Source: Pseudanabaena galeata CCNP1313
GTDB taxonomy: Bacteria; Cyanobacteriota; Cyanobacteriia; Pseudanabaenales; Pseudanabaenaceae
Assembly: GCF_029910235.1 (NCBI RefSeq)
Contig: NZ_CP112876.1
Location: 124,001-188,000, forward strand
Direction: 5' to 3'
Length of the DNA: 64,000 bases
This document shows, piece after piece, positions 17,810 through 62,815 of this stretch; the first letter of the stretch is position 1, and every line of letters starts with the position of its first letter. Made by a program: the position numbers and the translations under genes. The notes below the pieces were generated by a model. It worked only from the letters and a program-made list of their open reading frames with translations. It was not told the DNA's origin and did no database searches.

Positions 17810-17949
17810 AAAAGTGCAGGTCGCTATTTCGATTATTCGAGTGAGTACAGCGCTTTGCGCTAACTTAAAACCCAGAGAAAATTTTGAAACGCCGCTTTCA
17901 AAATTTTCTCTGTACCCCTTAAAGCCTCAATAGGCTGTAAGCAATCAAC

Positions 17950-20371: not shown

Positions 20372-20426
20372 AAAACCCAAGAAGCGAATAGCGGCGCGAA
20401 GCGCCGCTATTCGCTTCTTGGGTTTT
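20372..20426. repeat. Perfect 26-bp-arm hairpin between parA and brxE
   Basis: The arms run from AAAACCCAAGAAGCGAATAG to GCGGCGC, with a 3-nt GAA loop, and the second arm is the exact complement. It belongs to a group of hairpins in this window with GC-rich cores and 3-nt loops (see 35414, 38714, 42619, 57682, 62651). It lies in the divergent promoter region between parA and brxE and could insulate the two promoters. Confidence 0.8.
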
Positions 20427-26100: not shown

Positions 26101-26792
26101 CGGTTAGAGCTGTCAAAAAACATTTAGATACCTTGCAAGATGGGATTCAGCGCCTTGGGATCGAAAATAGCGAACTGACCAATGAAGCGATCACTCAAGT
26201 AAAAAAAGCCCATGAGGTCTATAGTCATTGCGTGGAACAGTTGCGCGGTATGGGCAAATTAGCAGACCTCGAACTGATGGCGATCGCCCTGCGTCAACAA
26301 CTGCAAGCGGAACGTCCTTGGCGCGATCTGGCAAGTTTAACCCCGAACATTGAGGCGATCGCCACTCGCTATCGGGAGGTGCGGCGCGAACTGCTCGATG
26401 CTCAATATTTGCAATTAGAGGCAGTGGCGGCAAGGGTAAAGACGCGGCAGGGTTTTGCACGACTCAGTGAAGACAAAGCCGACTATGTGATCCGTCCGAT
26501 TCGACAAGCCGAAATCAAAACCACAGAAGATGCCCTCTATCCCACACTGATTCAATTACGCGACTCGGCTGTAAGACAGCTAGAGCAAGCGGAAATGGAA
26601 GCTAATGCCACCCTTGATCGCCTCATTTCCGAAGAGACTCAAGAGCAGGTGCTTACCCTTGATGTGCTTACTGATTTACGCAATCGCGAACTTCGCAATC
26701 CTGAAGAGGTAAATGCCTTGGTCGATACCCTACGCGATCGCCTGTTGAAGCAGTTGGAGCATAAGAAAAATGTACGGATTCGATTGATCTAA
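23124..26792 (+). CDS. brxC: BREX ATPase BrxC
   Basis: 1222 residues, the usual BrxC size. Walker A GFYGSGKSS lies at residues 88-96 and a Walker B-like LFITIDEVSQYI near 278-289. A long C-terminal region follows with alpha-helical and coiled-coil segments (residues about 960-1200). BrxC is the large P-loop ATPase thought to power the BREX complex that modifies self DNA and blocks phage replication. GGAG lies about 10 bp upstream of the ATG. No repeat has invaded this frame, unlike pglX. A hairpin overlaps the stop codon. Confidence 0.92.
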   Translation: MLVKDIFARDVTRDIAPVVYFHEQEPAKLWEEVSEYIITGGYAEDDPRHTRTNQGIHEQFVRLLKAIAQDLEQPSRAGVTLPAAWISGFYGSGKSSFAKLLGLALDDRQMPNGQKLADALLARDDSPKSAEFREVWQKLTKRIEAIAVVFDIGSLARDNEDIHQVAKREIQKRLGYCKTSNYVAEHELKLEIDGRWDTFLECAIATIGKPWEQIKNSELAEEDFSLILHRLEPEKYIEPMSWIDSRAGNRTGLGSAVDDTTKAIAAMLNNRAPSKTLFITIDEVSQYIHQNDNRMLKLQSFVEDLGQKLKGRVWLLATGQQQLEDGIDQGNIGKLKDRFPPRYRVHLTPANIRDVVHKRLLQKSPVHEVELRSLFQQHRSDLKLYAYGCENISEEDFLEVYPLLPNYIDLFMQITSSLRLTSTRVKGDDYAVRGLLQMLGELFRTQNLGDRNLGALVTIDAIYEIQQTALDVDTQNTMTRILSDRQIVDNLITLKVAKAIALLQLIQEAQPTTTKLISQCLYDELGAGNNESEVQIALDKLRDRGHITYSEKLGYKLQSSAGQEWQRERDSSGVTDDQLTALLMEKLKDLVGNSEPPKYKGRSFRWQAYFSDERQRKDERLISPNDAATAIVDLRYIRDDLREDVTIWIAQSGQETYRDRLLWIVGNVVDVPELARRQVRSRQMIGKYQGRFAALSPNKQRLLIEEQSEAERLDASLKEAIANAFVRGTFYFRGRQLDSQGSTFSSLLQRTAESILPEVYTYFQDMAIAPSELEQLFKKQLSGVSPKFMERELGILSLDAGKYVPTCNGEIPTLIYNEIAKNNGMAGNSLLTIFGSAPYGYASDLVRACLLGLLRANKIRIRTENQQMISSYADAGVEDLFKKERDLKKAEILLATESDITVRDRTAICKFFNDHLQVELDREKEAIADAVFKYFPYKASLLRELEGKYNRLPLRLQDVADQNGDDRHQLPDSLQKLQKALTDCCQSRQIEDTVRAVKKHLDTLQDGIQRLGIENSELTNEAITQVKKAHEVYSHCVEQLRGMGKLADLELMAIALRQQLQAERPWRDLASLTPNIEAIATRYREVRRELLDAQYLQLEAVAARVKTRQGFARLSEDKADYVIRPIRQAEIKTTEDALYPTLIQLRDSAVRQLEQAEMEANATLDRLISEETQEQVLTLDVLTDLRNRELRNPEEVNALVDTLRDRLLKQLEHKKNVRIRLI

Positions 26793-26825
26793 AGCTAGTG
26801 GCGGCTTTACGCCGCCACTAGCTTT
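26791..26825. terminator. Hairpin at the end of brxC
   Basis: AAAGCTAGTGGCGGC pairs perfectly with GCCGCCACTAGCTTT around a TTTAC loop. The left arm starts within the brxC stop codon. It may terminate or stabilise the brxC message; only three T residues follow. Confidence 0.6.
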
Positions 26826-26870
26826 ATAATGCTATGTAGCGCGAATATTTTTAGAGTTTAGAGTCAAACC

Positions 26871-27572: not shown

Positions 27573-27945
27573 ATAAAATAAATAAATAAATATGAGTGCG
27601 CGGCATCGCCGCACACTCTTTATAACTGAATTGTGAGCCAAATAAAGCGGCTCCCCTCGCCTTTTCTGAAATTGTGATCACCCTCAGTGACATCTTGCCG
27701 CCGACCCCGTAATTTTTATGTTTCGTAGGGGTAGAGCATTTGCGCCACAATTCCTGAGCTTTCCACCAACATCTCGATCCGCAAATGCTCTACCCTCTTC
27801 GCTATTGTGAGTTAGCTGTGATAGCGTTAAGTTTAGGGCAAAGCATTCCTATATTCAAAACCTAGTGAGATGCCTTAGATGGTTGCAGGAATGCTATGCC
27901 CCTACCAAATCAATACCGAATTAATATTGAGTCAAAATTCCATAA
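27573..27945. repeat. Intergenic stretch before pglX with three fold-back repeats
   Basis: The stretch contains a GAGTG.GCGGC-ATC-GCCGC.CACTC hairpin (27594-27618) and a 16-bp perfect inverted repeat GGGTAGAGCATTTGCG/CGCAAATGCTCTACCC (27729-27744, 27780-27795). It also holds an 84-bp element (27836-27919) with arms GGGCAAAGCATTCCT/AGGAATGCTATGCCC that recurs at 32930-33013. No gene is seen. Confidence 0.8.
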
Positions 27946-30900
27946 ATGACCTACCTCTCTCCTACAACTAAAGCTCAACTCTCCAAAACCATTCGCAATT
28001 TGCGCGATCGCCTGATTACTGACCTACACAACGCCGTTGAGTCCACATACTTGATGGGCGTAAACCTAGAACAGGTGCAGCTAGATGAGGAGCGTCATTG
28101 TAAGCGGGAGCGATTAGAGAAATATTTAGAAGAATTGGTGAAGGGGGATCTTGCGGTTTATAAGGGCAAGCAATCAGCGAAATTAAAGCAGGAATTGCGC
28201 GATCGCCATCGGCAGGATCTCGAAAAACTGGCGGCGGCGACTTGGCTGAATCGGTTGGCGGTGATTAAGAATTTAGAGGCGATGGGGTTGCTGAAGCCGA
28301 AATTGGTGACGGGGGGATGGCAGAGCGCCGCTTTTAAGGAATTTCGGGACTATGCACCAGAGTTTTTGCAAGAGGAAGATCAGGGCTATGGGTTATTGTT
28401 GCGCTTGGTGTTTGATGAACTGGCGATCGACTTGTCGGGTTTATTTGGGCGCGGCGGGTTGAATGGGTATATTGAGCTTATTCCCATGCCTGCGTTGACT
28501 TTGCGGTATTTAGTGGAAGAGCTAGACAAGGTTGAGGCGGATGCATGGCGCGATGATACGACTTTGGGCTGGATCTATCAATATTGGAATGATCCTGAAC
28601 GGGAAAGCATTGATCAAAAGATGAATGATGGCGGTAAGGTGGAGCCGCACGAAATCGCCAGTAAGACGCAGATGTTTACGGAGCGCTATATGGTGGAGTG
28701 GCTATTGCAAAATAGCTTGAATAATCAATGGCTGGATATTTGTGGGTTGAATGGTTGGATTGCTGAGGCGGTGAGCGATCGCACCTTAGAAAATCTCGAA
28801 GCGCGGCGGCAAGTTTGGCGGCAAAGGCGCGAGGCGGGGGAGGTGGCGCTAGATGAGTTGATGGCTATTGAGAATGAGCAAGAACAGCGTTGGAAGTATT
28901 GGGTGAAGCCACCCTCACCCCCAGCCCCTCTCCCATCAAGGGAGAGGGGAGAAAATTCTCTTACTCCCCCTTCTCCCTTAATGGGAGAAGGGGGCAGGGG
29001 GGATGAGGGTCTTCCTAACACCAAAGAATATTGGGAAATCCCCCCGCATCTCAAAGCCAAAATGGTCGAAGTGGCTCGACAGTTTCGCAAAGAACCGACT
29101 GCTAGTGAAAATTTACTATGGCAAGCTTTGCGTAGTCGCCAAATCGAAGGGCGTAAGTTCAGGAGACAGCAGCCCATCGGTGTATTTGTTGTTGATTTTT
29201 ATTGCGCTACGGAACGCTTGGTTATTGAAGTTGATGGTTTAATTCATGAGTCTCAACAAGAAAACGATCGCCAACGTCAAGAGCTACTGGAATCTTTAGG
29301 TCTTAGATTTGTGCGAGTGAGTAGTCAGCTTATTGAGGAAGATTTAGCCGAAGCTATCAATATTGTTCGTCAAGCGATTGTGAGTCCCTCATCCCCCCTG
29401 CCCCCTTCTCCCAGAACGGGAGAAGGGGGGGCAAGAGTAGAAAAGAAAGCAGATTTATCTGTTTCCTCTCTTGCTCCCCTCTCCCTCAATGGGAGAGGGG
29501 CTGGGGGTGAGGGTCTTTCCCTCCGCCACCTCAAACTGATCGATCCTGCCTGTGGGTCGGGGCATTTCCTTGTGATCGCTTTTGACTTGCTGTTTGCTTT
29601 TTATCAGGAAGAATCGCGGCATCGGGGTAAGGTTTGGACGGATGCGGAAATTGCCAATAGCATTTTAGAAAATAATCTCTATGGGATTGATATTGATGCG
29701 CGGGCGGTGCAGATGGCGGCGGCGGCGTTGTGGCTGAAGGCGAAGGGGCTTTGCAAGGATGCTGCGCCGAGGCAGATTAATTTGGTGGCGGCGAATTTGA
29801 ATTTGGCGAATTTGCCGAAGGATGATCCTGAGTTGTTGAATTTTTATGACGAGGTGCGATCGGCGACGGGGATTCCGCCGAAGTTGACGATGCAGATTGT
29901 GGAGGCGCTGAAGGGGGCGGATGTGTGGGGTAGTTTGCTGAAGGTGGATGGGGCGGTGACACAGGCGATCGCTGATTATGAAGCACAGATTAATCAACCT
30001 TTGCAGTTGTCGATTTTGCCCTCATCCCCCCTGCCCCCTTCTCCCAAGGAGGGAGAAGGGGGAGAAAGAAGTCTTGCTCCCCTCTCCCGTTCTGAGGCAC
30101 AAGGGAGAGAAGATTTATCTTCTCTTTCTCTTGCTCCCCTCTCCCGTTCTGGGAGAGGGGCTGGGGGTGAGGGCAAATTTAATGCTACTCAAGCTCAGTC
30201 AAGTATTTTGGAGGCGTTGGAGAGGTTTTTGCAGCAAAGGTCGCAGAGTGATGATCTGGGGGTGCGGTTGTGGGGTGAGCAGTTGGCGGCGGGGGTGAGG
30301 TTTGTGCGGATGGTGCGGGAGGGTCAGTATGATCTGGTGATTGGCAATCCGCCGTATCAGGGGACAAGTAAGATGGCGGATGCTGGTCATTTGTCGAAGC
30401 ATTACCCCAAGGGGAAGGCGGATCTCTATGCGGCGTTTTTGCAGCGTGGTTTGGAGTTGGCGAAGGATGGTGGGTTTTCGGCGTTGCTGACGATGCGAAA
30501 TTGGATGTTTATCAGTCAGTATTCGGCGATTCGGGAGTTTTTGATTGAGAGTTATGATTTGCGATTGTTAGGAGATTTAGAAACGGGTGCGTTTGAAGGA
30601 ATTTCTGGTCAAGTTGTATCGGTTTCTATGACAATTTTTCGAAAATCAAAACCTTCTGATCGATTAAGTATTGCAATTCAGCCAAAAACTTCACAAATTA
30701 GCGAATCTTCTCAACAAACACCAAATAAACGTGCGGCTTTATTGGCTCAAGTGGGAAGATATGAGTTCAAAACGCAAAATTTTAATGTCATCAAAGAAAA
30801 GCCTCTCATTTACTGGTGGGATGATGCCTTTCTCAAACGCTACGCCGAAACTCCGAAAATTGAAGAAGTTTCTCCAGGAAGAGCCGCGCAATCAACAGGA

Positions 30901-32811
30901 GATAATACAAGATTTGTTAGAAGTCCTTGGGAAAGTGAATTTATACAATTTAGTTTTTGTAAAGATTTATGGAAAGAATATCCTTCAAAAAATACATGGC
31001 ATCCATTTATTAATGGAGCTTCTGGATTAGCTTGGATTGAGCCTTTAAGATTTTTAGTGAACTGGAAATATAAGGCGTTAGAAATAAAGCTTCTAAAATC
31101 TACCCAGACAAATAGAGAGGCTTTTATTTTATCAAGCGAAAAATATTTTTATGGTAAAGGAATTGCTTTTGCAATGATTGGACAATCTTTTCTTTCTAGA
31201 ATACATAGATATCCGAGTATTTTAGGTAATAAAGGTTCTTCTATATATTCTGATAATCCATCAAGTCTAGTATGTTTGATGAATAGTCAGCTTGGCAAAC
31301 AAATTTTACAGTCACTAAATCCAGGTGTAGGTTTTGAAGTTGGAGATGTAAATCGTCTTCCGTTATTCCCCATAGAATCCGCAGACGAGATATTTAGAGA
31401 ACTTGAAAAAGCATTTAGCGAACATGAAGCAGGACGCGAGACATCCGTAGAATTTATTAGCCCCCGTCCTAGCCCTTGGCGCACCGCCCAAACATGGGCG
31501 CAAACCGCCGTAGACCGACCCGCAGGCACACCCCTCCCCCCCTACCATCCCGAATACGACCCACCCACCGCCCAAGACTTTATTTCCTACGCCGTGGGGT
31601 TAGCATTGGGGCGGTTTGGAAGACCCTCATCCCCCCAGCCCCCTTCTCCCAGAACGGGAGAAGGGGGAGCAAGAGAATTTGCTCCCCTCTCCCTCAATGG
31701 GAGAGGGGCTGGGGGTGAGGGTGGTAGCTTAAAATCACCCTCATCCCCCCAGCCCCCTTCTCCCAGAACGGGAGAAGGGGGAGAAGATTTATCTTCTAAA
31801 TCTCTTGCTCCCCTCTCCCTCAATGGGAGAGGGGCTGGGGGTGAGGGTCTTCCCATCCTCTACCTCTCCGCCTACAGCCAAGATCTCCCCGAAATCGGCG
31901 ATCGCCTTACCCACCCCGCCGCCGCCCCCATCCATCACGCATGGACAGAACATGGCTCCCAAATCACCAAAAAAACACTCCGCGAATGGTTGCGCCAAGA
32001 CTACTTCAAAGAAGACCACCTCAAACGCTACGACCAACGCCCGATCTACTTCCCCATCTCATCCACCAAAAAGAACTTTGTCGCCATCATCCCCATACAC
32101 CAATGGACAGACAACACCCTGCAAACCCTCCTCGCTGACCACCTCCTCCCCGACCAAAACCACCTCATCGGTGAAATCAACGACCTCATGGCAGCGCGTA
32201 ACCAACCTGACACAAAGGCAATCGCCACCGCCGAAAAACGCTATAGCGAACTATGCAAACTCCAAGAAGAACTGCAAGACTTGATCAACAAAGTCCAAGC
32301 GATCGCTGAACGTGGCGCACCACCAACAAAATCTAGCGATCCGCGCCGTGAAGTCGATGCCACCTTCAAAATGGATCTCGATGACGGCGTAATGATCAAC
32401 AGCGCCGCCCTCTGGACATTGCTCGAACCCCAATGGAACAAACCCAAAACATGGTGGTCAGAACTCAGCACCGCCCAAAACAAAAAAGACTATGACTGGG
32501 CGCACCTCGCAGCCCGCTATTTCCCCAGCCGCGTCGATGCCAAATGCCAAAAAGACCCATCCCTAGCCGTTGCCCACAGCGTCTTCTGGAAATATCACCC
32601 CGCCAAAGCCTACGAGTGGGAACTGCGTTTGCAAGATGAGATCGCCCCTGATTTTCATATCGCAGAACCAGATTCCCAATCTTTGCGCGATGCGTTTATC
32701 AGAGACAATCCTGAGCTAGTTTTAGACTTGCGACAAAAGGAACAAAAACGCAGGGATCGCAAAAAGAACAAAGAAGAAGATCAAATGGCGTTTGAATTGC
32801 AGGAAGAATAA
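27946..32811 (+). CDS. pglX: BREX methyltransferase PglX with in-frame repeat and DUF559 insertions
   Basis: 1621 residues, against about 1200 for typical PglX. PglX is the adenine-specific DNA methyltransferase that marks self DNA. The N-terminal helical domain (1-320) is followed by C-rich repeat peptide (about 322-355), a DUF559 nuclease-like domain (about 360-480), and a second repeat peptide (about 482-525). SAM motif I DPACGSGHF (about 533-541) comes next, a third repeat peptide (about 691-744), then motif IV NPPY (about 800). A target-recognition region follows, a fourth and fifth repeat (about 1226-1302), and the C-terminal domain. Every insertion keeps the frame. Core motifs are intact, so activity is plausible. 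Confidence 0.93.
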   Translation: MTYLSPTTKAQLSKTIRNLRDRLITDLHNAVESTYLMGVNLEQVQLDEERHCKRERLEKYLEELVKGDLAVYKGKQSAKLKQELRDRHRQDLEKLAAATWLNRLAVIKNLEAMGLLKPKLVTGGWQSAAFKEFRDYAPEFLQEEDQGYGLLLRLVFDELAIDLSGLFGRGGLNGYIELIPMPALTLRYLVEELDKVEADAWRDDTTLGWIYQYWNDPERESIDQKMNDGGKVEPHEIASKTQMFTERYMVEWLLQNSLNNQWLDICGLNGWIAEAVSDRTLENLEARRQVWRQRREAGEVALDELMAIENEQEQRWKYWVKPPSPPAPLPSRERGENSLTPPSPLMGEGGRGDEGLPNTKEYWEIPPHLKAKMVEVARQFRKEPTASENLLWQALRSRQIEGRKFRRQQPIGVFVVDFYCATERLVIEVDGLIHESQQENDRQRQELLESLGLRFVRVSSQLIEEDLAEAINIVRQAIVSPSSPLPPSPRTGEGGARVEKKADLSVSSLAPLSLNGRGAGGEGLSLRHLKLIDPACGSGHFLVIAFDLLFAFYQEESRHRGKVWTDAEIANSILENNLYGIDIDARAVQMAAAALWLKAKGLCKDAAPRQINLVAANLNLANLPKDDPELLNFYDEVRSATGIPPKLTMQIVEALKGADVWGSLLKVDGAVTQAIADYEAQINQPLQLSILPSSPLPPSPKEGEGGERSLAPLSRSEAQGREDLSSLSLAPLSRSGRGAGGEGKFNATQAQSSILEALERFLQQRSQSDDLGVRLWGEQLAAGVRFVRMVREGQYDLVIGNPPYQGTSKMADAGHLSKHYPKGKADLYAAFLQRGLELAKDGGFSALLTMRNWMFISQYSAIREFLIESYDLRLLGDLETGAFEGISGQVVSVSMTIFRKSKPSDRLSIAIQPKTSQISESSQQTPNKRAALLAQVGRYEFKTQNFNVIKEKPLIYWWDDAFLKRYAETPKIEEVSPGRAAQSTGDNTRFVRSPWESEFIQFSFCKDLWKEYPSKNTWHPFINGASGLAWIEPLRFLVNWKYKALEIKLLKSTQTNREAFILSSEKYFYGKGIAFAMIGQSFLSRIHRYPSILGNKGSSIYSDNPSSLVCLMNSQLGKQILQSLNPGVGFEVGDVNRLPLFPIESADEIFRELEKAFSEHEAGRETSVEFISPRPSPWRTAQTWAQTAVDRPAGTPLPPYHPEYDPPTAQDFISYAVGLALGRFGRPSSPQPPSPRTGEGGAREFAPLSLNGRGAGGEGGSLKSPSSPQPPSPRTGEGGEDLSSKSLAPLSLNGRGAGGEGLPILYLSAYSQDLPEIGDRLTHPAAAPIHHAWTEHGSQITKKTLREWLRQDYFKEDHLKRYDQRPIYFPISSTKKNFVAIIPIHQWTDNTLQTLLADHLLPDQNHLIGEINDLMAARNQPDTKAIATAEKRYSELCKLQEELQDLINKVQAIAERGAPPTKSSDPRREVDATFKMDLDDGVMINSAALWTLLEPQWNKPKTWWSELSTAQNKKDYDWAHLAARYFPSRVDAKCQKDPSLAVAHSVFWKYHPAKAYEWELRLQDEIAPDFHIAEPDSQSLRDAFIRDNPELVLDLRQKEQKRRDRKKNKEEDQMAFELQEE
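28910..29010. repeat. C-rich palindromic repeat inside pglX, copy 1
   Basis: It encodes proline-rich peptide (PPSPPAPLPSRERGE ... GEGGRGDEG). The nucleotide pattern CCCCAGCCCCTCTCCC ... GGGGGCAGGGGGGATGAGGG matches the intergenic repeats at 32812 and 36608. It forms the left boundary of the DUF559 segment. Confidence 0.88.
29011..29390 (+). other. DUF559 nuclease-like domain embedded in pglX
   Basis: About 120 codons encode a complete DUF559 domain: PTASENLLWQALRSRQIEG, KFRRQQPIGVFVVDFYC, LVIEVDGLIHE, LGLRFVRVSSQ. These hold the Asp and ExD residues of the Vsr-like fold. Stand-alone DUF559 proteins of this length and start (an N-terminal ArgRxLRkxxTxaE-like segment) are common in cyanobacteria. 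It is bounded on both sides by C-rich repeats and lies just before methyltransferase motif I. Confidence 0.85.
29391..29517. repeat. C-rich palindromic repeat inside pglX, copy 2
   Basis: It encodes SPLPPSPRTGEGG and LAPLSLNGRGAGGEG. It forms the right boundary of the DUF559 segment and is followed at once by LRHLKLIDPACGSG. Confidence 0.88.
30019..30174. repeat. C-rich palindromic repeat inside pglX, copy 3
   Basis: It encodes SPLPPSPKEGEGG, then two successive LAPLSR-type units. It is inserted between methyltransferase motifs I and IV, a loop that evidently tolerates about 50 extra residues. Confidence 0.88.
31624..31850. repeat. Two tandem C-rich palindromic repeats inside pglX, copies 4 and 5
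   Basis: Two consecutive units each encode SSPQPPSPRTGEGG and LAPLSLNGRGAGGEG. They are nearly identical, which suggests recent duplication. They lie in the C-terminal third of PglX. Confidence 0.88.
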
Positions 32812-33977: not shown

Positions 33978-36608
33978 ATGACTAATCCGATCGCTGACTA
34001 TCTCGAACAAGACATTAAACAAAGCATCCGCCGTCAGGGAATAGTGATTTGGCTAGATGCTGAGAGCCGCTATACCGAATTTGTTGATCGCCTAATCACT
34101 CGTTATCAAACAGGGAATTTTGACTTTCCTGTGGTGGGCTTTCGGGGGAGCTATCTGGAATTATTGCTGCAACTAGAAAACTATGGCAATGGACTTGATC
34201 CTGATCGGCTATTAATCCATTTACCAAACCACAACACCCAAACAGTTAAGCAAACTCCATTATTAGAACTCTATCGAGCAGGAAAACGCTACGAAAAAGC
34301 CCTACCTACCCTTGTGCGTGAAGCAGTTACAGGTAAAGTCGCTCCTGATGCGATCGCAGATTTTCTAAAAACGACCGACCTTACCCTCGCAGGAGCCGAA
34401 ACTTGGCTAGATCAACAATTAAATCGACATAATTCTTCAACTGGCGACCTTGGTGATGAATTCCGTAATTATTTAGCAGGGTTAGATCATCAATGGATTC
34501 TCGATGGTTTGCTCAATCAAGATAGCAATCTCCGCACCAAAATCCATAGTGCAGCCGAGCTAAATATTCTGATCGAACATTTTTATATTCATACAGGAAT
34601 GGATATCGCCTTTTTACAATTTTTCCTTAAGAATGATGCTGTAGATATAGACCATTTAGAATTTGCCTTTGTCGCTTGGTTGATGTGTGTGGAATATACC
34701 AACGACCTCACCCGATCGCCCTATCTGCCCGAATTACAACCCTTGCGATCGCTTCCCAAATTATTACAAGCACAATGTCAAAATCTAATTAACCATCTCC
34801 GTGATCGCCATCCCCTGCGTTACATTGCGATCGCTGAAGAAGTCGAAGCCAAAATCAAATTGGAACTCGAACAAATCACGCCCCATGATCTCGGCAAAAT
34901 TGACACCTTCGCCACCGAAGATCGAGTTATGCTCAATGCCTCTATTCAAGCCCTGCTCGCGCAAAATTGGCAACAGGTGATCATCTGGGGGCGATCGCGA
35001 CTGAAAGAGCCTTCCCTTTGGATTCTCCACGATTCTCAAAAACGCCGCCTGTGGTTTTGGGTCTTAAGAGCCGCCCAGTTTGGACAGGTAATTACGCAAC
35101 ACCATCATGTCTTAAACGGGGTGACAACTTTACGCGAAGCCCTTGATCTCTATACCCAAAAGGCTTGGATTGTCGATTCTTACCATCGCGGCTTTGAACA
35201 ACTACGCTTGCAAATAACCACAAATAGTAACCTGCCACAATATGCGTCAATGGAGAAAGTGACACATTTTTTGCGCCAGCTTTATCGTGATTGGGCAGAT
35301 GATTTGGCGCGAGACTTTGCGAAATTATGCGATCGGGTGGGCTTCTTACCTGAAGAGGAATTACAGCAGCGCCATATTTTTGAGCGTCACTGTTTGCCAT
35401 TGATTACTACTCCAGAGAAGGATGGCGCTTCGCGCCATCCTTCTCTAGGACAAGCTGAACAAGGAGATCGCGTTGCTCTGTTCCTCGTCGATGCCTTTCG
35501 CTATGAAATGGCAATGGAATTAAGAAACAAATTCAATCAAGAGGAGTTCCAGACTGACCTCATCGGCTGCTATGCCGAACTACCTACGATTACGGCAATG
35601 GGTATGAATGCGATCGCCCCTGTGTCGCAGGATGGCAAAATCCGCTTACCCGATGGCAAAGACTTTAGTAAAGGCATTAAAGCGGGAGAATATACGGTCA
35701 AAGATCCTGATAGTCGGGCGCGGGCAATGGGCGATCGCACTTTTAGTACTAGTCGCGATCGGCATTCGTTATCCAGTCTCTCGCTGCAACAGGTCGCCCA
35801 ATCAACCAGTGAGGCTTTAGAAAGTCAAGCTAAAAAGGCAGCCTTGCTCGTCATCCATAGCCGCGAAATCGATGATGCAGGTGAAGCAAATGTGGGTCTA
35901 GTTACATTTACCAATTGGATTCAACAACTGAAAGCCGCGATCCATAATCTCCAAAAGATTGGGATTCATACCTGTATCCTCACCGCCGATCATGGCTTCA
36001 TGCTCCTCGACCACACCGTTAAGGAAGTGGAATATGCCACCGCTACTCGCCGCTATGTGCGTCTCGATGATTACCGCCGCGAGGCTGATTGTGTATCTGT
36101 ACCATTGCGATCGCTCAATTATGATGGTCAAGAAGGTTATCTTCTATTTCGGAATGACACCGCTATTTTTAAGGGGAAATCTAAACTCAGTAATGCTTCC
36201 TTTGCTCACGGTGGCAATAGTTTACAGGAGCGTATAATTCCTGTTCTCACAATTACTAAGCGGTTAGCTGTTAAAGCATCCATTAAAAATAGGATCGCTA
36301 AAGCACAACCACAAATTCCAGATCCTATTCAAGATCTAATTCCCGATCTAGTTCCTGAACCAAATCAAGGGTTGATAAGTGCGACTAGCGATCGCTGGCA
36401 AGACAATTTTGATGATCCTGCGATCGTCAAGGTATTTGAGCATCTAGAAAAACATGGCGCGATCGTGGAAACTGAACTTGTGCAAATGCTCGGTTCACCA
36501 CGTAAAGCGCGAAGTTTTGCGAGCAAGTTTGATGAATTTACTGCTAAAGTTCCCTTTACTGTCCAAGCTGAAAATGTCCCTTCAGGTAAGCGGTATATTA
36601 AGAGATAA
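33978..36608 (+). CDS. pglZ: BREX protein PglZ
   Basis: 876 residues. The PglZ domain of the alkaline-phosphatase superfamily is visible: VALFLVDAFRYEMAMEL near 501-517 (metal-binding Asp), PTITAMGMNAIAP (nucleophile-region Thr), and ILTADHGFMLLDH near 665-677 (metal-binding DHG). PglZ is the conserved BREX core protein that partners with PglX. A 33-bp hairpin (35414-35446) lies in frame at residues about 480-490 (EKDGASRHPSLG) just before the catalytic domain. The gene ends directly at a C-rich repeat. Confidence 0.93.
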   Translation: MTNPIADYLEQDIKQSIRRQGIVIWLDAESRYTEFVDRLITRYQTGNFDFPVVGFRGSYLELLLQLENYGNGLDPDRLLIHLPNHNTQTVKQTPLLELYRAGKRYEKALPTLVREAVTGKVAPDAIADFLKTTDLTLAGAETWLDQQLNRHNSSTGDLGDEFRNYLAGLDHQWILDGLLNQDSNLRTKIHSAAELNILIEHFYIHTGMDIAFLQFFLKNDAVDIDHLEFAFVAWLMCVEYTNDLTRSPYLPELQPLRSLPKLLQAQCQNLINHLRDRHPLRYIAIAEEVEAKIKLELEQITPHDLGKIDTFATEDRVMLNASIQALLAQNWQQVIIWGRSRLKEPSLWILHDSQKRRLWFWVLRAAQFGQVITQHHHVLNGVTTLREALDLYTQKAWIVDSYHRGFEQLRLQITTNSNLPQYASMEKVTHFLRQLYRDWADDLARDFAKLCDRVGFLPEEELQQRHIFERHCLPLITTPEKDGASRHPSLGQAEQGDRVALFLVDAFRYEMAMELRNKFNQEEFQTDLIGCYAELPTITAMGMNAIAPVSQDGKIRLPDGKDFSKGIKAGEYTVKDPDSRARAMGDRTFSTSRDRHSLSSLSLQQVAQSTSEALESQAKKAALLVIHSREIDDAGEANVGLVTFTNWIQQLKAAIHNLQKIGIHTCILTADHGFMLLDHTVKEVEYATATRRYVRLDDYRREADCVSVPLRSLNYDGQEGYLLFRNDTAIFKGKSKLSNASFAHGGNSLQERIIPVLTITKRLAVKASIKNRIAKAQPQIPDPIQDLIPDLVPEPNQGLISATSDRWQDNFDDPAIVKVFEHLEKHGAIVETELVQMLGSPRKARSFASKFDEFTAKVPFTVQAENVPSGKRYIKR
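35414..35446. repeat. In-frame hairpin inside pglZ
   Basis: AGAGAAGGATGGCGC-TTC-GCGCCATCCTTCTCT is a perfect 15-bp-arm palindrome with a 3-nt loop. It encodes a short extra peptide immediately upstream of the phosphatase-like domain. Confidence 0.85.
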
Positions 36609-36710
36609 CCCTCACCCCCCAGCCCCCTCTCCCATTAAGGGCGAGGGGGAGTAAGACTAATTTCTTGTTCCCCTCTCCCTTTTTGGGAGAGGGGCTAGGG
36701 GTGAGGGTCT
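36608..36710. repeat. C-rich palindromic repeat between pglZ and brxD
   Basis: CCCTCACCCCCCAGCCCCCT ... GGGAGAGGGGCTAGGGGTGA, closely similar to the copy at 32812-32912 and to the outer repeat at 21073. It begins at the last base of the pglZ stop. Confidence 0.88.
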
Positions 36711-36756
36711 TATAATCTTCCATGTAACGTCAGTTAAAAAATAAAACTGTGTAGCT

Positions 36757-38076
36757 ATGAATTTGAACGCTAAGGATACCGAACATATTTTTGAAAAACT
36801 GCGATCGGGAGTTGTTCCAGAACGGGGGCTAGAAGCCTTTGCTGTCGGCATAGATCGATCGCGGAAGGAAATCCAACGCCAACTCGAACTCGCTGCTGAT
36901 GGTGAAGGCGTATTTAAATTTTTGCGTGGCGGTTATGGTTGCGGTAAAACCTTTATGTCTCGCCTTGCCACCCTCGAAGCCCGCGATCGCGGTTTTGCCA
37001 CTAGTTTTATAGTTGTTTCTGATAATGATCTGCACTTCCATAAATTTGATGATGTCTATCGCAAAGCCATACAGGAACTTGGCACAAATGTATGCCCAAG
37101 GGGAGCGCTAGGCGACATTCTCGATCGCTGGATTGCGAGAGTTGAAGATATGCTGATCGCAGGGGGGAAAGATGAAGATGATCCTAATTTTGATGATGCG
37201 GTGCGCGATCGCCTCGATGAAGAACTTGCCTCGATGACAGGTGGACAAGTTCCTGAAGACATGACACGAGTATTGCGAACCATCTTTACCCTCAAGCAAC
37301 AGGGAAACTTTGCCGAAGCCAGCGCCCTCATTTCTTGGCTATCAGGCAGTGAAAATGTTGCAGCAAGCGCCAAAAAAATTGCAGGGATTAAAGGCGATAT
37401 TGGCAGCCGTGAAGCCCTCGACTATTTACTTGGCATTTTGCAGATCGTCAAGGCGGCAGGTTACAAGGGCTGGGCGATCGTCATTGATGAAGCAGAAACG
37501 ATCTTGCGAATGCGTCAAGACGTGCGCGGTAAATCCTTAAATGGTATTCGTCAAATCTGTGATGCCGCCGATCGCTTTCATGGATTGCTCTGGATTTTTA
37601 CAGGTACGCCTGACTTTTTTGATACGAAGCGTGGCATTGCGGGACTAACACCGCTTCACGATCGCATCAAGTTTGAAACCTATAGCGGTTTTAGTAGTCC
37701 GCGTCAGCCCCAATTGGAACTCACCCCCTTTGATGCCATTCGTTTAAAGGAAGTTGCTCTCAGACTGCGTGAACTTTTTAACGATGGCGATCGCATTCAT
37801 TTAGAACGGAAAATCACCCTTGAATTTATCGATCGCCTGATTGCAGAAGTAACTAAAGGATTTAAAGGCGATGTGGGGGTAGTGCCGCGTCAGTTTTTAC
37901 GACAATATGTGAATCTTCTGGATTTAGTTGCCGATAACCCTGACTTCGATCCGATCAGTGCATTAGCTCTGCCCGCAGATACCCTCAATGATGATGAACT
38001 TCGTATTAAGTCAGGTCTGCCCTATTACGATCCTGAACCAGAAGAAAATGAAGTTTACGCCGTTGTTGAATTTTAG
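36757..38076 (+). CDS. brxD: BREX ATPase BrxD
   Basis: 439 residues, the usual BrxD length. Walker A GGYGCGKT lies at residues 58-65 and Walker B WAIVIDEAETIL near 238-249. The sequence resembles the AAA+ ATP-binding BrxD family found in type 2 and type 6 BREX: GVVPERGLEAFAVGIDRSRKEI at the start, and a C-terminal winged-helix-like region containing VVPRQFLRQYVNLLDLV. It is encoded directly before brxHI, as expected. Confidence 0.9.
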   Translation: MNLNAKDTEHIFEKLRSGVVPERGLEAFAVGIDRSRKEIQRQLELAADGEGVFKFLRGGYGCGKTFMSRLATLEARDRGFATSFIVVSDNDLHFHKFDDVYRKAIQELGTNVCPRGALGDILDRWIARVEDMLIAGGKDEDDPNFDDAVRDRLDEELASMTGGQVPEDMTRVLRTIFTLKQQGNFAEASALISWLSGSENVAASAKKIAGIKGDIGSREALDYLLGILQIVKAAGYKGWAIVIDEAETILRMRQDVRGKSLNGIRQICDAADRFHGLLWIFTGTPDFFDTKRGIAGLTPLHDRIKFETYSGFSSPRQPQLELTPFDAIRLKEVALRLRELFNDGDRIHLERKITLEFIDRLIAEVTKGFKGDVGVVPRQFLRQYVNLLDLVADNPDFDPISALALPADTLNDDELRIKSGLPYYDPEPEENEVYAVVEF

Positions 38077-38133
38077 ACCCTCATCCCCCAGCCCCTTCTC
38101 CCCACTTGGGAGAGGGGGCTAGGGGGTGAGGGA
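38077..38133. repeat. Short C-rich palindromic repeat between brxD and brxHI
   Basis: CCCTCATCCCCCAGCCCCTT ... GAGGGGGCTAGGGGGTGAGG in the 87-bp gap. It is the fifth such intergenic repeat in the BREX locus. Confidence 0.85.
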
Positions 38134-38163
38134 AAATTTTGCGCTTTCTATGGATTTTTAATC

Positions 38164-40329
38164 ATGCATTCCACTTTTGCCAGATTTCCGCCCCGACTAC
38201 AACAGGCGATCGCTGATCGCCTCGGTTGGTCATCATTACGCCCCGTCCAAGAACTAGCAGGTCAAGCCATCCTTGATGGTAAAAATGCTGTCGTTCTCGC
38301 GCCGACCGCAGGGGGCAAAACTGAAGCCGCCATATTTCCGCTATTAGCAAATTTAATTGAAAATGAACCGCAGGGCGTGGGCATACTCTACATCGCGCCG
38401 ATCAAAGCTCTGCTCAATAATCAATGCGATCGCTTTGCCACTTATACCGAAATGGTGGGCTTACGCAGTTTTGTCTGGCATGGCGATATTAAAGGGAAAG
38501 ATAAGCAAGCTTTTCTCAAGGAACCTGCCGAAGTTCTCCTCACTACTCCCGAATCTATCGAAGTGATGCTTCTATCAGCAAAAGTCCCTCACACTAAGCT
38601 TTTCGGTGATCTTCGTGCAGTAATTATTGATGAAATTCACGCCCTCGCAGGTAGCGATCGCGGTACACATTTACTCTCTGTACTAGAGCGTCTAATTACC
38701 GCCGCCAATAACCAAATTTTAGAGGGCGCGGCTTCGCCGCACCCTCTAAAATTTCAAGCCCATGATGTGCAGCGAGTTGGACTGAGCGCCACTGTGGGCA
38801 ATCCAGAGCAAATTCTCCACTGGATGCAAGGCTCATCACAGCGTCAAAGAATCGTGATTGATCCACCAAAAATTCCTGCTAAGCGTGAAATTGCTATCCT
38901 ACAGCGTGACGAGATTGGCGCGATCGCCCGTGAAGCCAGTCGCAAAGCCCTAGGTAATAAGAGCTTATTCTTTTGTCAAAGTCGAGCGCTTGCGGAAGAT
39001 GTCGCGGAACGAATGCGCGATCGTAGTACCGATGTATTTGTGCATCATAGTTCTGTCTCTCGCACTGAACGCGAAACCGCCGAAGAGAACTTTCAAAAGG
39101 GAACTAATGCTTGCATTCTCTGCACCAGTACCCTCGAATTAGGAATTGATATTGGCGATCTTGATCTTGTTCTCCAAGCCAATGCTCCGAGTACCGTGTC
39201 ATCATTTTTGCAAAGATTGGGACGCACGGGTAGACGCGGAGGTAAGGCTGCTAACACTACCTTTTATTGTGAAAATATTGAGACGGTCTTACAAGCGATC
39301 GCCATTGCCGAATTAGCGCGATCGGGCTGGGTGGAGTCTGTTAAGTGTCATAACCGCACATGGACAGTTTTAGTCCATCAATTACTGGCGCTGACTTTGC
39401 AATTTGGCGCAATTAGTCCCGAACTTGCTTGGCAGCAATTATTGCTCATTCCTGATTTTCAGGGCATCGCGGAGACAGAATATCAAATTTTGATTCAGCA
39501 TGGCATTAGGGAAGGTTATTTTTTTCAATCGGGCGGCTCACTGTCCATCGGTGAAAGAGCCGAGAAGATATTTGGGCGCAAAAACTTTATGGAACTCTAT
39601 GCCGTATTCAGTAGCCCAGTTCTCTATAAAGTCAAGACCACAGCAGGTTATACCGTTGGTTCTCTAGAACAAGACTTTGCCGATAAATTAGTACCAAGTA
39701 TGAGTTCCTTTCTCTTAGGTGGCAAAGCTTGGCTAGTTGAAGCGATCGATCACAAGGAACGCTCAATTCGCGTAATTCTCTCTCCAAAAGGTAAAAAGCC
39801 TAACTGGAATAGCTTTTCGCCGCAAATCCTCAGCTATGAACTCTGTCAAAAAATTTACGAGATCCTTACTACCGACATCGACTATCCCTACATAGACGCT
39901 CAATCTCGTTATGCTCTCACAGAAAAACGTGAAGATCTGGGTGTTCTTCTCCGTCAGCAATCTTTCACTGCGATCGATGATGGCGATCGCGTCACATGGT
40001 GGACATTTGCAGGTGGACAAATTAATTACACAATCAAGTATCTCCTAGCAGATCTCCACCCTGAATGGAAAGTCATTGCTGATAACTTCAAAATTGGTAT
40101 TGAAGGCTCTGAGGTGAGTGTGCAGTTATTGCGATCGGCTTTAGATAGATTGCGATCGGATTTTGACTGGCAAAGCGAAGCACATCGATCCAATATCCTT
40201 GCTCAACTTCCTCTCTATCGCTTTAGCAAGTTTCAACCTCTACTCCCTGAATCTTATGCTCTTGAGACTATTGAACGTTATCTACTCGATTGGGAAAGTA
40301 CTAGTCTTTTTTTAAACCGTTTTATCTAA
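38164..40329 (+). CDS. brxHI: BREX helicase BrxHI
   Basis: 721 residues, an Lhr-like superfamily 2 helicase. APTAGGKT (46-53), TTPES, a DEIH box near 156-159, SAT, and QRLGRTGRRGG (motif VI, near 352-362) are all present. A C-terminal Lhr-type region follows. BrxHI is the helicase of type 2 and type 6 BREX and ends this locus. A 19-bp-arm hairpin (38714-38754) lies in frame between motifs II and III, encoding EGAASPHPLKF. Confidence 0.9.
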   Translation: MHSTFARFPPRLQQAIADRLGWSSLRPVQELAGQAILDGKNAVVLAPTAGGKTEAAIFPLLANLIENEPQGVGILYIAPIKALLNNQCDRFATYTEMVGLRSFVWHGDIKGKDKQAFLKEPAEVLLTTPESIEVMLLSAKVPHTKLFGDLRAVIIDEIHALAGSDRGTHLLSVLERLITAANNQILEGAASPHPLKFQAHDVQRVGLSATVGNPEQILHWMQGSSQRQRIVIDPPKIPAKREIAILQRDEIGAIAREASRKALGNKSLFFCQSRALAEDVAERMRDRSTDVFVHHSSVSRTERETAEENFQKGTNACILCTSTLELGIDIGDLDLVLQANAPSTVSSFLQRLGRTGRRGGKAANTTFYCENIETVLQAIAIAELARSGWVESVKCHNRTWTVLVHQLLALTLQFGAISPELAWQQLLLIPDFQGIAETEYQILIQHGIREGYFFQSGGSLSIGERAEKIFGRKNFMELYAVFSSPVLYKVKTTAGYTVGSLEQDFADKLVPSMSSFLLGGKAWLVEAIDHKERSIRVILSPKGKKPNWNSFSPQILSYELCQKIYEILTTDIDYPYIDAQSRYALTEKREDLGVLLRQQSFTAIDDGDRVTWWTFAGGQINYTIKYLLADLHPEWKVIADNFKIGIEGSEVSVQLLRSALDRLRSDFDWQSEAHRSNILAQLPLYRFSKFQPLLPESYALETIERYLLDWESTSLFLNRFI
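38714..38754. repeat. In-frame hairpin inside brxHI
   Basis: The arms read AAATTTTAGAGGG-GCGGC around a TTC loop, paired over 19 bp with one C/A mismatch. It lies between the DEIH box and the SAT motif without breaking the frame. Confidence 0.85.
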
Positions 40330-40333
40330 ACTA

Positions 40334-40525
40334 ACGTGAGTTCGACAAACTAAAAGCAAGCAGGAGGTAGAGCAGGCAGGTCTTTGAAGAGAAGATCCAA
40401 AGCAGGTTTAGTCTCTCGATAGGAATAAGCAACCAAACCAGCCAAAAGGTTAACGAGGAAATTGAAAAAGCTGCGATGTCTTGAATGCTCAATCTGAGAA
40501 ATGTTTTTCAGTTGGTCATTGACCT
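40334..40525 (-). mobile_element. IS982 remnant (3-prime end)
   Basis: It starts with the IS982-type end ACGTGAGTTCGAC. On the minus strand it encodes the C-terminus of the transposase seen at 51449-52360 ([20 protein letters not shown], then [12 protein letters not shown]). The rest is missing and ISKra4 DNA follows. Confidence 0.85.
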
Positions 40526-40881
40526 TACTTTTCCTTGCATCTTATCAGTTTTTGATCGCCTTGCAAACCATTGCTTGTATGCTTTTATTTCTTTTTCAGT
40601 AAGCCCTACTTATTTTCGCAATCATCATCATCAAATGCATTATGTTGAAGCTATGTCCGCCAACTTACCCATTGGTTCGGGGATCACCGAGGCAGCCTGT
40701 AAAGTAATTATCAAAGCTCGATTGTGCTGCTCTGACATGAAATGGAAAGACAAGGGCGCTTCTGTTGTTTTGAGTCTTAGAGCTTTGAGCTATAACAACA
40801 GTCGATGACAGCAGTTCTGGGATAAAATCAGATGCTATAGCTTCTCACTCTAAATCTGTTCATCAAATTCTGGTCACACCC
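40526..40881 (+). mobile_element. ISKra4 remnant (3-prime end)
   Basis: It encodes LPIGSGITEAACKVIIKARL and SDMKWKDKGASVVLSLRAL, then a stop codon, then QQFWDKI. This is the C-terminus of a transposase like that at 2677-3957. It ends TGGTCACACCC, matching the ISKra4 terminal repeat. Confidence 0.83.
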
Positions 40882-40913
40882 ATTGTTATCAGCCTTAAAA
40901 ACTAGAGAACCAG

Positions 40914-42743
40914 TTAAATTGTAATTGGGGATTGTATATAAATTGTCGGATCTTCCATCGTAAAGACAATTCCTTGTTCTGAAAGAGATCTAGCAATTTC
41001 GATGCTTGCCAACTCTAGTAAACGTTTACGCACTTCGATCGCATTATCTTGAGAGCCGAGAATTGCGAAACTAACGCGCAATCGTTTACCCGTACCATCA
41101 GCATCAGAAATATTTGTACTATTCGCATCGATTCCAGACAATGCAGAGGTTTTATCCACAATTACTTGCTGCACAAGCGCAAGTTCGCGTTCTCCTAAAA
41201 CTGCCGCAAAATTCATATATAGCAACACCATAATCTTTTTGGCTAGAGTCACATTTTCGAGCTCGACACTAACTAAGATCGAATTGGGCATGATAATAAT
41301 TGTGCCAGTGCCAAGAGAGCGAATTTTGGTTGATCGCAAACCAATGCTTTCTACTTTCCCTAATTCTCCCGCAGGTAAGCGGATGTAGTCACCAACTACA
41401 AAAGGACGATCTAGATAGAGAACTAGAGTGGCAATTAGTTGTTCAAGAATCTTTTGTGCGGCAAAAGCAACAGCTAAGCCAACTAATCCTAAACTTGCAA
41501 CTAAGCCAATTAGATCAAAGTTAAGACTTTTGGCAAAGGCAACTAAAGCAATAATAAAAATGAGGATATTAATAATAGTTTCAAAGACAAGTATTGCGTC
41601 ATCACTACTAGGGCTAAAGTGTCTACCGATCTTGAATCCATAAGTACGCAAATATCGACTAATTAATTTTACAGATATCCAATATAAACTAGCAGTTAAA
41701 AGCAGATTGGAAATTGGTTTGATTAGGTTATAAGCAACAGGCGCTAAGGACTCTAGTAAAATCAAAGACCAACTAATGGCAATATTAAGAACTACAAATC
41801 GCAACAGGCGATCGCTAGGTTGAATAACATCTTGATAAATCTTTTCGACAGATTGAGGGGCTAATTTTCTCAAGGCAAATTTTACTAAATCTGTAGCGTA
41901 GTGGCTAAATATAAAAGAGCCGATTAAAGCACCGAAAAATATAAGCCATTGGGCTTCAAAAAATGGGGAAATAATATAGTAACGCCAGCTTCGGAAAAGT
42001 GGGAACCATTCAGAACTAAGCCCCGCGATTGCAACCCATCCTAAACCAAAAGCAATTTTGTTGAAAATTCCAGTTTTAAGCTTAAATATTCGAGTTGCTA
42101 TACCAAATAAAATCCTCAATCCGATTAATACCGCAATCGCCATTAAAATCAAAAAAATTCGCTGCAAAAAATATTGAGGAGTTCTTTCTTCCTTAGCTTT
42201 AGCAATCGCCGTTTCTAGAATTTCCCGCCATCGATTAGCTTGTTGTAATGGTGAAAAATCTGGTAACACGTCATTAGCTGTGACCGTAAGCAGATATTCA
42301 CTATTTAAGGAAATAGATGTGGCACTGGTACTACTATCATTCCTTACCTCAATATTTATGTTTGGCGAGGTAGAGATCGCCTCAATAAGAACATTATTTG
42401 CAAATTGTGATCGCTCCTTAGCTGTAAAGCGATCTACTGCTTGCAAATCAAACAGTGGAATCCCATCAACAACCACAGAGGCACCAGCATCGCTAAAGTT
42501 AGGACTGAATTTTTGAACAGAATTTGGCGATGAAATTTGCGTAAACCCAATAGGAATGAATATTAGTAACCAACCCACGAAAAATAATATGATTAGCTTA
42601 AGCAAGCGAGGTAAAAAGGTTTGTTTCCCCGCCAAAGGCGGGGAAACAAACCCGTACTTCACTAGATTGGTAAACGCTATAATTGTCTGTTTAAATATTT
42701 GTTTAGATAGAGATTGGAGCATCCACATAAATTGTTGGTTCAT
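40914..42743 (-). CDS. MscS-family mechanosensitive channel (long form)
   Basis: 609 residues. An N-terminal hydrophobic segment (LLKLIILFFVGWLLIFIPIGF) precedes a periplasmic domain with VVVDGIPLFDLQAVDRFTAKER. Several transmembrane helices follow, then the MscS pore and beta domain: GLVGLAVAFAAQKILEQLIATLVLYLDRPFVVGDYIRLPAGELGKVESIGLRSTKIR. It opens under membrane tension to release solutes. It overlaps the preceding mscS gene by 41 bp. A hairpin (42619-42653) lies in frame near the N-terminus (FVSPPLAGKQTF). Confidence 0.9.
   Translation of the reverse strand: MNQQFMWMLQSLSKQIFKQTIIAFTNLVKYGFVSPPLAGKQTFLPRLLKLIILFFVGWLLIFIPIGFTQISSPNSVQKFSPNFSDAGASVVVDGIPLFDLQAVDRFTAKERSQFANNVLIEAISTSPNINIEVRNDSSTSATSISLNSEYLLTVTANDVLPDFSPLQQANRWREILETAIAKAKEERTPQYFLQRIFLILMAIAVLIGLRILFGIATRIFKLKTGIFNKIAFGLGWVAIAGLSSEWFPLFRSWRYYIISPFFEAQWLIFFGALIGSFIFSHYATDLVKFALRKLAPQSVEKIYQDVIQPSDRLLRFVVLNIAISWSLILLESLAPVAYNLIKPISNLLLTASLYWISVKLISRYLRTYGFKIGRHFSPSSDDAILVFETIINILIFIIALVAFAKSLNFDLIGLVASLGLVGLAVAFAAQKILEQLIATLVLYLDRPFVVGDYIRLPAGELGKVESIGLRSTKIRSLGTGTIIIMPNSILVSVELENVTLAKKIMVLLYMNFAAVLGERELALVQQVIVDKTSALSGIDANSTNISDADGTGKRLRVSFAILGSQDNAIEVRKRLLELASIEIARSLSEQGIVFTMEDPTIYIQSPITI
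42619..42653. repeat. In-frame hairpin at the N-terminus of the long mscS gene
   Basis: GGTTTGTTTCCCCGCC-AAA-GGCGGGGAAACAAACC has perfect 16-bp arms with a 3-nt loop, placed before the first hydrophobic segment. Confidence 0.8.
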
Positions 42744-47010: not shown

Positions 47011-47431
47011 TGTGTGAATATGACCATAAGCTTGCCGCAATTGACACCATAAATTTGCCGCTACTGAGTTTGAAATACCGATTTCACCGTTAGGTTCTCC
47101 TAGATTCGTCCTTCTAGAAGGAAGCATAAGTTTGCCGAAAGTCTGGAATAAGAAGCATAAGCTTGCCGAAAACCGTAAACTCTTGAAGCTCCCAAAAGCC
47201 TTGAGCAGCGTGGTGTTATCTTCCTGCTGCATCTGGATTTTTCTCCCATCGCTGATTTTACCACTCCAGTCACAGACAAATTTTGCCTGTGGCTGGGCTA
47301 AAGGGCTTAAGGAGACTGAATATAGCGGACATCTACTATCAAAACGCTGACTGGCTATGTGTTAGAGTCATTTGTCCTAGAGGTTGATACCATAAGTTTG
47401 CCGCAGCGGCAAACTTATGGTCATAATTACA
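47011..47431. mobile_element. 421-bp non-autonomous element with Tn7/Tn5053-like multi-repeat ends
   Basis: It begins TGT and ends ACA with inverted ends containing ATGACCATAAGCTTGCCGC and GCGGCAAACTTATGGTCAT. A 12-bp motif ATAA(G/A)(C/T)TTGCCG occurs five times direct (47026, 47049, 47126, 47157, 47392) and once inverted (47407-47418). The last two form a 33-bp palindrome. Multiple short sites behind TGT/ACA termini are typical of ends bound by TnsB/TniA-type transposases. No transposase gene lies inside. Confidence 0.6.
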
Positions 47432-62470: not shown

Positions 62471-62815
62471 AGCCATTACAAAATTTGTAATGGGGGAATA
62501 CAAAGGGAGTGTCCCCTTTTGGCAAGCAACATAGCTTGCACTCAAATTTGCACATACCTCAAATGACGCAAACTCGTTGAAAATCCACATCGATCATTTC
62601 AAATGCGATCGCAACTTTTGAACGGGTGCGCGATCGCCTTTGTTGTTTTAACGTGAGTTCGATATAGCCATTTGCGGCGTGCGAAGCACGCCGCAAATGG
62701 CTATATCGAACTCACGTTGTTTTAAGGTAATATAACTGTGTCTATTTGTAGCTAATAGGTTCTATTAAGATGCGAAAATGCTACATATAAAGACTTATAG
62801 AGACAAGGATGTACC
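62471..62815. other. Intergenic stretch with an IS982-type MITE
   Basis: 345 bp without a convincing gene. The only structure is the 67-bp fold-back at 62651-62717 (separate entry). Two HIP1-type GCGATCGC motifs are present. Confidence 0.7.
62651..62717. mobile_element. 67-bp MITE with IS982-type ends and 7-bp target duplication
   Basis: Perfect 32-bp arms, starting ACGTGAGTTCGATATAGCCA, enclose a GAA loop. The outer 12 bp equal the IS982 terminus seen at 40334. It is flanked by TGTTTTA at 62644-62650 and 62718-62724, the same duplication length as the complete IS982 at 51374. Confidence 0.85.

Follow-up and report, generated by a model that had tools for sequence, protein, structure and literature searches.

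Imperfect palindromes of E. coli are made perfect by strand switching, a process called quasipalindrome correction, with which van Noort et al. reportedly dealt in 2003. Minute inversions at chloroplast DNA hairpins are said to have been described by Kelchner and Wendel in 1996, and small dispersed repeats of Nostoc, reportedly, by Elhai and colleagues in 2008.

Published accounts describe several related cases. In S. cerevisiae genes, template switching between the arms of inverted repeats is reported together with ten spacer inversions, the arms being mostly 10-11 bp (PMC8604942). Template switching is also held to create and maintain RNA hairpins (PMC8794818), and minute inversions at one chloroplast DNA spacer involve a 25-27-bp loop between arms of at least 18 bp (PMC2903610). 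Nematomorpha mitochondrial genes carry coding palindromes of up to 284 bp, for which template switching is offered as the mechanism (PMC6649704), and Rickettsia palindromic elements are ~150 bp long (PMC10969869). Palindromes are described as over-represented in most bacterial phyla, and as extremely so in the coding sequence of a few genera, including Cyanobacterium (PMC4060949).

A preliminary description of a 64,000-nt stretch of the Pseudanabaena galeata CCNP1313 genome (hereafter, the window) drew attention to near-perfect palindromes with short loops, both between genes and inside pglZ, brxHI and mscS. Comparison with related genomes leads us to view them as mostly dispersed palindromic repeats that have probably been perfected, flipped and sometimes extended by template switching during replication, a reading to which we assign a probability of about 0.75.

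Materials and Methods

The window lies on C3, a contig of 217 kb in a six-contig genome of 5.84 Mb (G000). Relatives named below are Pseudanabaena sp. UBA1465 (G013, a MAG), P. biceps PCC 7429 (G015), Pseudanabaena sp. SR411 (G005) and P. frigida ULC066bin1 (G014, a MAG). A chromosome sample of 400 kb was taken from the window's genome, and loci L006-L025 together with the window supplied a set of 219 hairpins. BrxHI, BrxC and PglX were identified by PADLOC models and MscS by Pfam. For orthologous sites, 564 distinct hairpins yielded 354 comparisons. The stem-change test used 64 equal-length comparisons with a mean flank divergence of 8.2%, in which the partner need not be a palindrome; unequal-length comparisons were left out, as were five with arms less than 60% alike (before duplicates were merged).

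Results and Discussion

Palindromes scoring at least 10 numbered 26 in the window versus 1, 0 and 1 in three first-order Markov versions of it, and those scoring at least 11 numbered 18 versus none. Since the Markov controls were almost empty, a chance origin was ruled out; the window's hairpins are real, far above chance, and lie where the preliminary description had put them. Its coordinates were right for pglZ and brxHI, and off by one for mscS, where the hairpin spans 42618-42652. The further hairpins that it listed were also present: one in intergenic DNA at 20372-20426 (26-nt perfect arms, GAA loop), which belongs to the AAAACCC family and has no counterpart at the orthologous site of either G013 or G015; one at the end of brxC at 26790-26826 (16-nt perfect arms, 5-nt loop), which contains the brxC stop codon; and one, intergenic and weaker, at 27594-27618 (11-nt arms with one mismatch, ATC loop). 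Two more intergenic palindromes lie at 47389-47421 (16-nt arms, 1-nt loop) and 62650-62718 (33-nt perfect arms, GAA loop), the latter from a dispersed family of which 65-70 nt are identical at loci L019 and L020 of the same genome. Another palindrome, at 17873-17912, has the 6-nt centre CGCCGC and appears to derive by deletion from a family centred GCGGCGC-GAA-GCGCCGC in G022.

The chromosome sample held 233 palindromes with an arm score of at least 12. With a score of at least 14 required, that sample had 52.5 per 100 kb and the window 14.1; three further Pseudanabaena genomes gave 20-25, and five genomes representing other families within the class gave 0-5 (40 kb of each). By extrapolation, the whole chromosome would hold a few thousand palindromes. 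Genes were depleted of them: only 13 of 248 fell inside ORFs of at least 150 aa, though such ORFs cover 341 of 464 kb, and five of those 13 were 5-nt-loop repeats in pglX. This gene (27946-32811) contains, within its reading frame, five perfect CCCCCTTCTCCC palindromes with 5-nt loops as well as shorter CCCCTCTCCC ones, and near 31639 the window is ~114 nt longer than G015 and G005. Arms were perfect in 168 of the 219 hairpins (L006-L025 plus the window). The stem mismatches in this set were skewed on the given strand (37 C-A/A-C versus 16 G-T/T-G; two-sided p 0.005), and since the families are not independent, shared descent may explain the skew.

Several palindrome families form part of MITE-like repeats. 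One such repeat, ~116 bp long, occurred at 139 places in three genomes (no more than three mismatches to a 76-nt stretch of it) and is a short non-coding repeat with many near-identical copies and an empty orthologous site (L022:8354, missing in G005); the assignment as a MITE covers this 116-bp family and not the pglZ or brxHI hairpins. When the 139 loops, oriented by their asymmetric flanks, were counted by eye, 73 read GAA, 56 TTC, six AAA and four TTT, with no others, and the share of GAA against TTC (73/129) was not significantly different from one half. Among the 38 places in G000, 18 had a compensated double stem change (eight types, one of them common to nine places) and three a single change, counted by eye under a mismatch limit that biases both figures. 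In 77 hairpins whose loops measure 3 nt and whose arms reach 22 nt or more, the two arms differed from each other at 0.32 of 22 positions; for related copies, the figure was 4.0 of 22 (606 ordered pairs). An insertion of ~100 nt at L007:2129-2228, absent from G005 and ending in AGGACTTACGCAAAA and TTTTGTGTAAGTACT, appears to be a further MITE, one with terminal inverted repeats.

A sequencing or library artefact at hairpins is hardly credible as the source of these patterns. Several relatives are represented by drafts or MAGs, but the window's own six-contig genome has both loop orientations among its MITE copies, and the mirrored stem changes and flank-copying extension described below are not loop noise. 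Transposition, of REP type or other, would explain everything if a different copy had been inserted at each site; the genome has six matches to Y1_Tnp (PF01797), and some orthologous sites are without the 116-bp MITE or other elements. However, four Y1_Tnp loci inspected by eye had palindromes at each and no obvious matching pair close on both sides, and flips and mirrored changes at one site between unchanged flanks would stay unexplained. As a full account, transposition is very unlikely.

The pglZ gene (33978-36608, plus strand; 876 aa) encodes a Pfam PglZ domain (PF08665) at residues 498-676, closely preceded by the peptide that a hairpin at 35414-35446 encodes (plus strand; 15-nt perfect arms, TTC loop). 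The window's gene is 33 nt (11 codons) longer, in frame, than the hairpin-free allele of G013, and the pglZ of P. frigida (G014), 60% identical, is also without the hairpin. In P. biceps PCC 7429 (G015), the identical 15-nt stem encloses GAA as opposed to the TTC of the window; in G005, the stem is perfect but four of its base pairs have changed, each mirrored in the opposite arm, and the loop is TTT. Because of these mirrored changes and the loop flip, the residues encoded by the hairpin differ among the three relatives. Since the closest PglZ by protein identity is that of G013 (89%, versus 84% for G015 and G005), the hairpin may have been lost there, or alleles may have been exchanged. At no more than three mismatches, the pglZ stem occurred once in G000, at 24 places in G015 (pglZ included), once in G005, though not at pglZ, and never in G013. 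Twenty such relatives (the single G005 place, and 19 of the 23 in G015 outside pglZ) were inspected with their flanks: they have a common core and different outer stems, with fully perfect arms in 14 and a mismatch in six. Thus, the suggestion that outer stems differ everywhere holds among the sites of the window, but not beyond it, where this stem recurs in G015 and other Pseudanabaena sequences are related to the palindromes at 20372, 62650, 42618 and 17873.

The helicase gene brxHI (38164-40329, plus strand; 721 aa; PADLOC) carries its hairpin at 38714-38754 (plus strand; 19-nt arms with one mismatch, TTC loop) and is 27 nt (9 codons) longer, in frame, than in G013 and G015. The segment was missing from five of six orthologous loci, the exception being G005, which has it as an imperfect palindrome whose left arm is exactly complementary to the right arm in the window. 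One base of the left arm, one of the loop and five of the right arm differ between the two, a distribution that would fit either correction in the window's lineage or one-sided decay in G005. The stem is similar to a dispersed family as well, matching at 85% over 46 nt in L002. That hairpins in genes arose by insertion and are not ancestral coding sequence is thus borne out for brxHI and probably holds for pglZ. Between two BREX genes, at 38078-38132, there is also an imperfect palindrome with 25-nt arms within an insertion that has a short terminal repeat and is absent from G013, G015 and G005.

The third gene proposed to have gained an in-frame hairpin, an mscS-like channel gene (40914-42743, minus strand; predicted 609 aa; Pfam), is set apart from pglZ and brxHI because its hairpin (42618-42652, minus strand; 16-nt perfect arms, AAA loop), near the predicted N-terminus, belongs to a longer repeat. 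The hairpin is the inner part of a dispersed repeat of ~84 bp (about 42598-42681), of which copies with 80-93% identity occur in G022, G023, G025 and G002; G001 lacks the segment, and in G024 and G006 it differs. The N-terminal ~50 predicted residues come largely from this repeat, residues at about 15-50 match many places in the genus, and the true start codon may lie downstream of the repeat.

Template switching would operate on such sequences as follows. Most of the hairpins would be palindromic repeats dispersed in Pseudanabaena, in several instances as the inner portion of a MITE-like element, and the few that landed in coding sequence would have been retained because they preserved the frame. 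Inverted repeats that are nearly perfect and have very short loops would be hot spots at which the nascent strand, during replication, exits its template in the first arm, takes either the opposite strand (an intermolecular switch) or itself (an intramolecular one) as template, and then returns. A single switch would leave the second arm exactly complementary to the first; an intermolecular switch would also turn the loop into its reverse complement; and a late return would copy flanking DNA and so lengthen the stem. We infer both the replication step itself and the first spread of the families.

Among the 354 orthologous comparisons, the partner had the same stem family in 135, a different hairpin in 149 and no hairpin in 70; the last two figures indicate that turnover by insertion and deletion is also large. 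Merging of the 135 gave 77 pairs at 41 sites (the 149 and the 70 being left out of the pair count), in which the loop was the exact reverse complement in 26, the same in 25, otherwise changed in 23 and lacking in three. The 23 loops that are neither the same nor flipped count against template switching. Seventeen of the 26 flipped loops have at least 3 nt, one of them 7 nt, and the nine flips of 1- or 2-nt loops are weak evidence. Exact flips occurred at 20 of the 41 sites, and compensated stem changes likewise at 20. Where stems were identical and fully paired (18 pairs, all loop lengths), nine loops were flipped, six were the same and three were otherwise changed. In the equal-length set, non-homopolymer loops of at least 3 nt comprised seven exact flips and 18 other changes (11 nearer identity, seven nearer the reverse complement), with no loop simply reversed or complemented; homopolymer loops comprised eight flips and nine other changes, and 12 loops of at least 3 nt, homopolymer or not, were unchanged. 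Since hairpins with unrelated stems flip, a site-specific invertase was rejected, by inference, as the flipper.

Changes in the stems were mirrored far more often than independence would allow. Of 1241 stem pairs, 1072 were the same, and 91 had single, 67 compensated double and 11 other double changes; if arms varied independently at the rate of the flanks, 187 single and 2.8 compensated double changes would be expected. Choosing a perfect hairpin on one side inflates the compensated class somewhat, but not twentyfold. Judged from these alignments, independent point mutation does not explain the changes at orthologous sites. Selection on RNA structure, for example on bidirectional intrinsic terminators, offers another route, in which ordinary compensatory mutation keeps the arms complementary. 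Consistent with it, 235 of the 248 hairpins are at the edges of ORFs of 150 aa or more, or lie outside them, several have A- and T-rich outer stems, and the L007:16070 hairpin follows the 3' end of an apparent tRNA gene. Nevertheless, such selection predicts neither exact loop inversion nor flank copying, and the hairpin in pglZ, where a terminator would be harmful, has the same mirrored changes; we consider this explanation quite unlikely.

At one site (G017:C30 3916, with orthologues in G020, G012, G010, G019 and the window's own genome), the outer stem seems to include the last codons and stop of a gene, and where those codons differ among G017, G020 and G012, the non-coding right arm differs in mirrored fashion (frame assigned by eye).

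Lengthening of a stem was seen most plainly at G005:C198 32333, where the arms are 34 nt versus 15 nt in G012. The left flank is common to both genomes (one difference) and the right flank unrelated; in G005, the left flank recurs in inverted orientation as the outermost 19 nt of the right arm, with TAC in the loop where G012 has GTA. The locus appears to be a clear case of what an intermolecular switch with late return would be expected to produce. At 26790, the window's 16-nt arms compare with a G013 palindrome with 10-nt arms and a 1-nt loop, the window's version being 20 nt longer; the palindrome was not found in G015. At G017:C31 28872, the left arm is perfect, G020 differs from it by several changes and one base of length, and the right arm is common, which is likely to represent arm correction. 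A scan for one-sided outer arms found both outer 10-mers in 194 of 465 comparisons, neither in 220 and one only in 51, but the 51 are not used as an event count, many being threshold effects or chance matches elsewhere in the segment; we regard only G005:C198 as one clear flank-copying extension. An apparent inverted copy of the empty G010 target at L007:6475 was rejected, as similar outer stems recur in other family members, and G010 is for that reason better read there as a deletion derivative. The earlier suggestion that fold-backs may be built around a small core survives insofar as stems are rewritten: the flank copy and flip at G005:C198, the greater length at 26790 than in G013, and the common core with different outer stems among pglZ relatives all agree with it. 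De novo construction of the hairpins as a whole is not supported, many being members of dispersed families or MITEs found repeatedly across Pseudanabaena.

Ectopic gene conversion must also be weighed, since a family copy could overwrite a palindrome in either orientation, and would thereby flip the loop and alter both arms together. Many families are multicopy, which leaves room for it and counts against template switching, and the 23 further pglZ-stem places in G015 (no more than three mismatches) could have donated the pglZ flip. At the same threshold, G000 has no second pglZ-like stem, and the L022:8106 hairpin, whose loop is flipped between G000 and G005, is single-copy in both, so that no donor copy exists at that similarity; moreover, the G005:C198 extension copies local flank. 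We therefore rate gene conversion as unlikely.

Comparison of orthologous sites thus reveals the brxHI insertion, mirrored multi-base arm changes, exact inversion of the spacer and, in one clear case, an inverted copy of the flank. Mirrored changes, loop inversion and extension would all be explained by one process, template switching. Such a template slip looks unusually common in Pseudanabaena. A more far-reaching version, to be held tentatively and at less than even odds, is that switching is so frequent that the orientation of short loops is near equilibrium and that palindromes perfect and sometimes extend themselves, writing their inverted surroundings into the genome, including new peptide in BREX phage-defence genes; on this version, the genus may be without, or have in modified form, a function that elsewhere destroys hairpins or aborts switches.

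These repeats make it possible to count template-switch mutation per site in a natural bacterial system, exact loop inversion marking the intermolecular pathway. Long perfect stems could persist in repeats without any assumed selection, and mirrored, or covarying, changes alone do not prove a functional RNA. Through the pglZ hairpin, such changes would also reach protein sequence.

Comparison with known systems

The mechanism is already known; what seem new are the density, the near-equal loop orientations and the BREX-gene cases. Among the matches listed in our literature search, no title announces template-switched or loop-flipping cyanobacterial hairpins, though earlier work may exist. Quasipalindrome correction in E. 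coli is a laboratory mutational hot spot, whereas the Pseudanabaena pattern is a natural one that extends across species.

The remaining comparisons follow the systems as published accounts present them. Like REPs and REPINs (PMC3116915, PMC3733652), the Pseudanabaena repeats are short dispersed intergenic palindromes in a genome with Y1-type transposases; the features of REP/REPIN are GTAG/CGTC end tags and a dedicated, flanked transposase, and the likeness observed is in the dispersed palindromes and Y1 genes. As with Rickettsia palindromic elements and bacterial MITEs (PMC10969869), palindromes have been inserted in frame in unrelated protein genes (pglZ and brxHI), but at 33 and 27 nt, compared with ~150 bp, these inserts are by length not filed as Rickettsia palindromic elements. 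Nematomorpha also have perfect inverted repeats within protein genes (PMC6649704); theirs are long, with both arms coding for conserved protein, whereas the arms in Pseudanabaena encode extra predicted peptide absent from orthologues.

In chloroplast minute inversions (PMC2903610), too, the loop of an inverted repeat flips repeatedly among close relatives, but the Pseudanabaena loops are mostly of 3 nt, many sites are involved and the arms change as well. As described for RNA hairpins (PMC8794818), one event would make or repair a perfect stem and so yield multibase compensatory changes; those cases concern RNA genes, whereas in Pseudanabaena the sites are dispersed repeats and two protein genes, and loop inversion serves as an extra marker. 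Yeast (PMC8604942) differs in setting, since Pseudanabaena is a bacterial genus with ~50 palindromes per 100 kb, mostly dispersed intergenic repeats. Even so, both have arm homogenisation and spacer inversion in coding genes, and yeast likewise has ttc/gaa spacers and repeated flips across strains.
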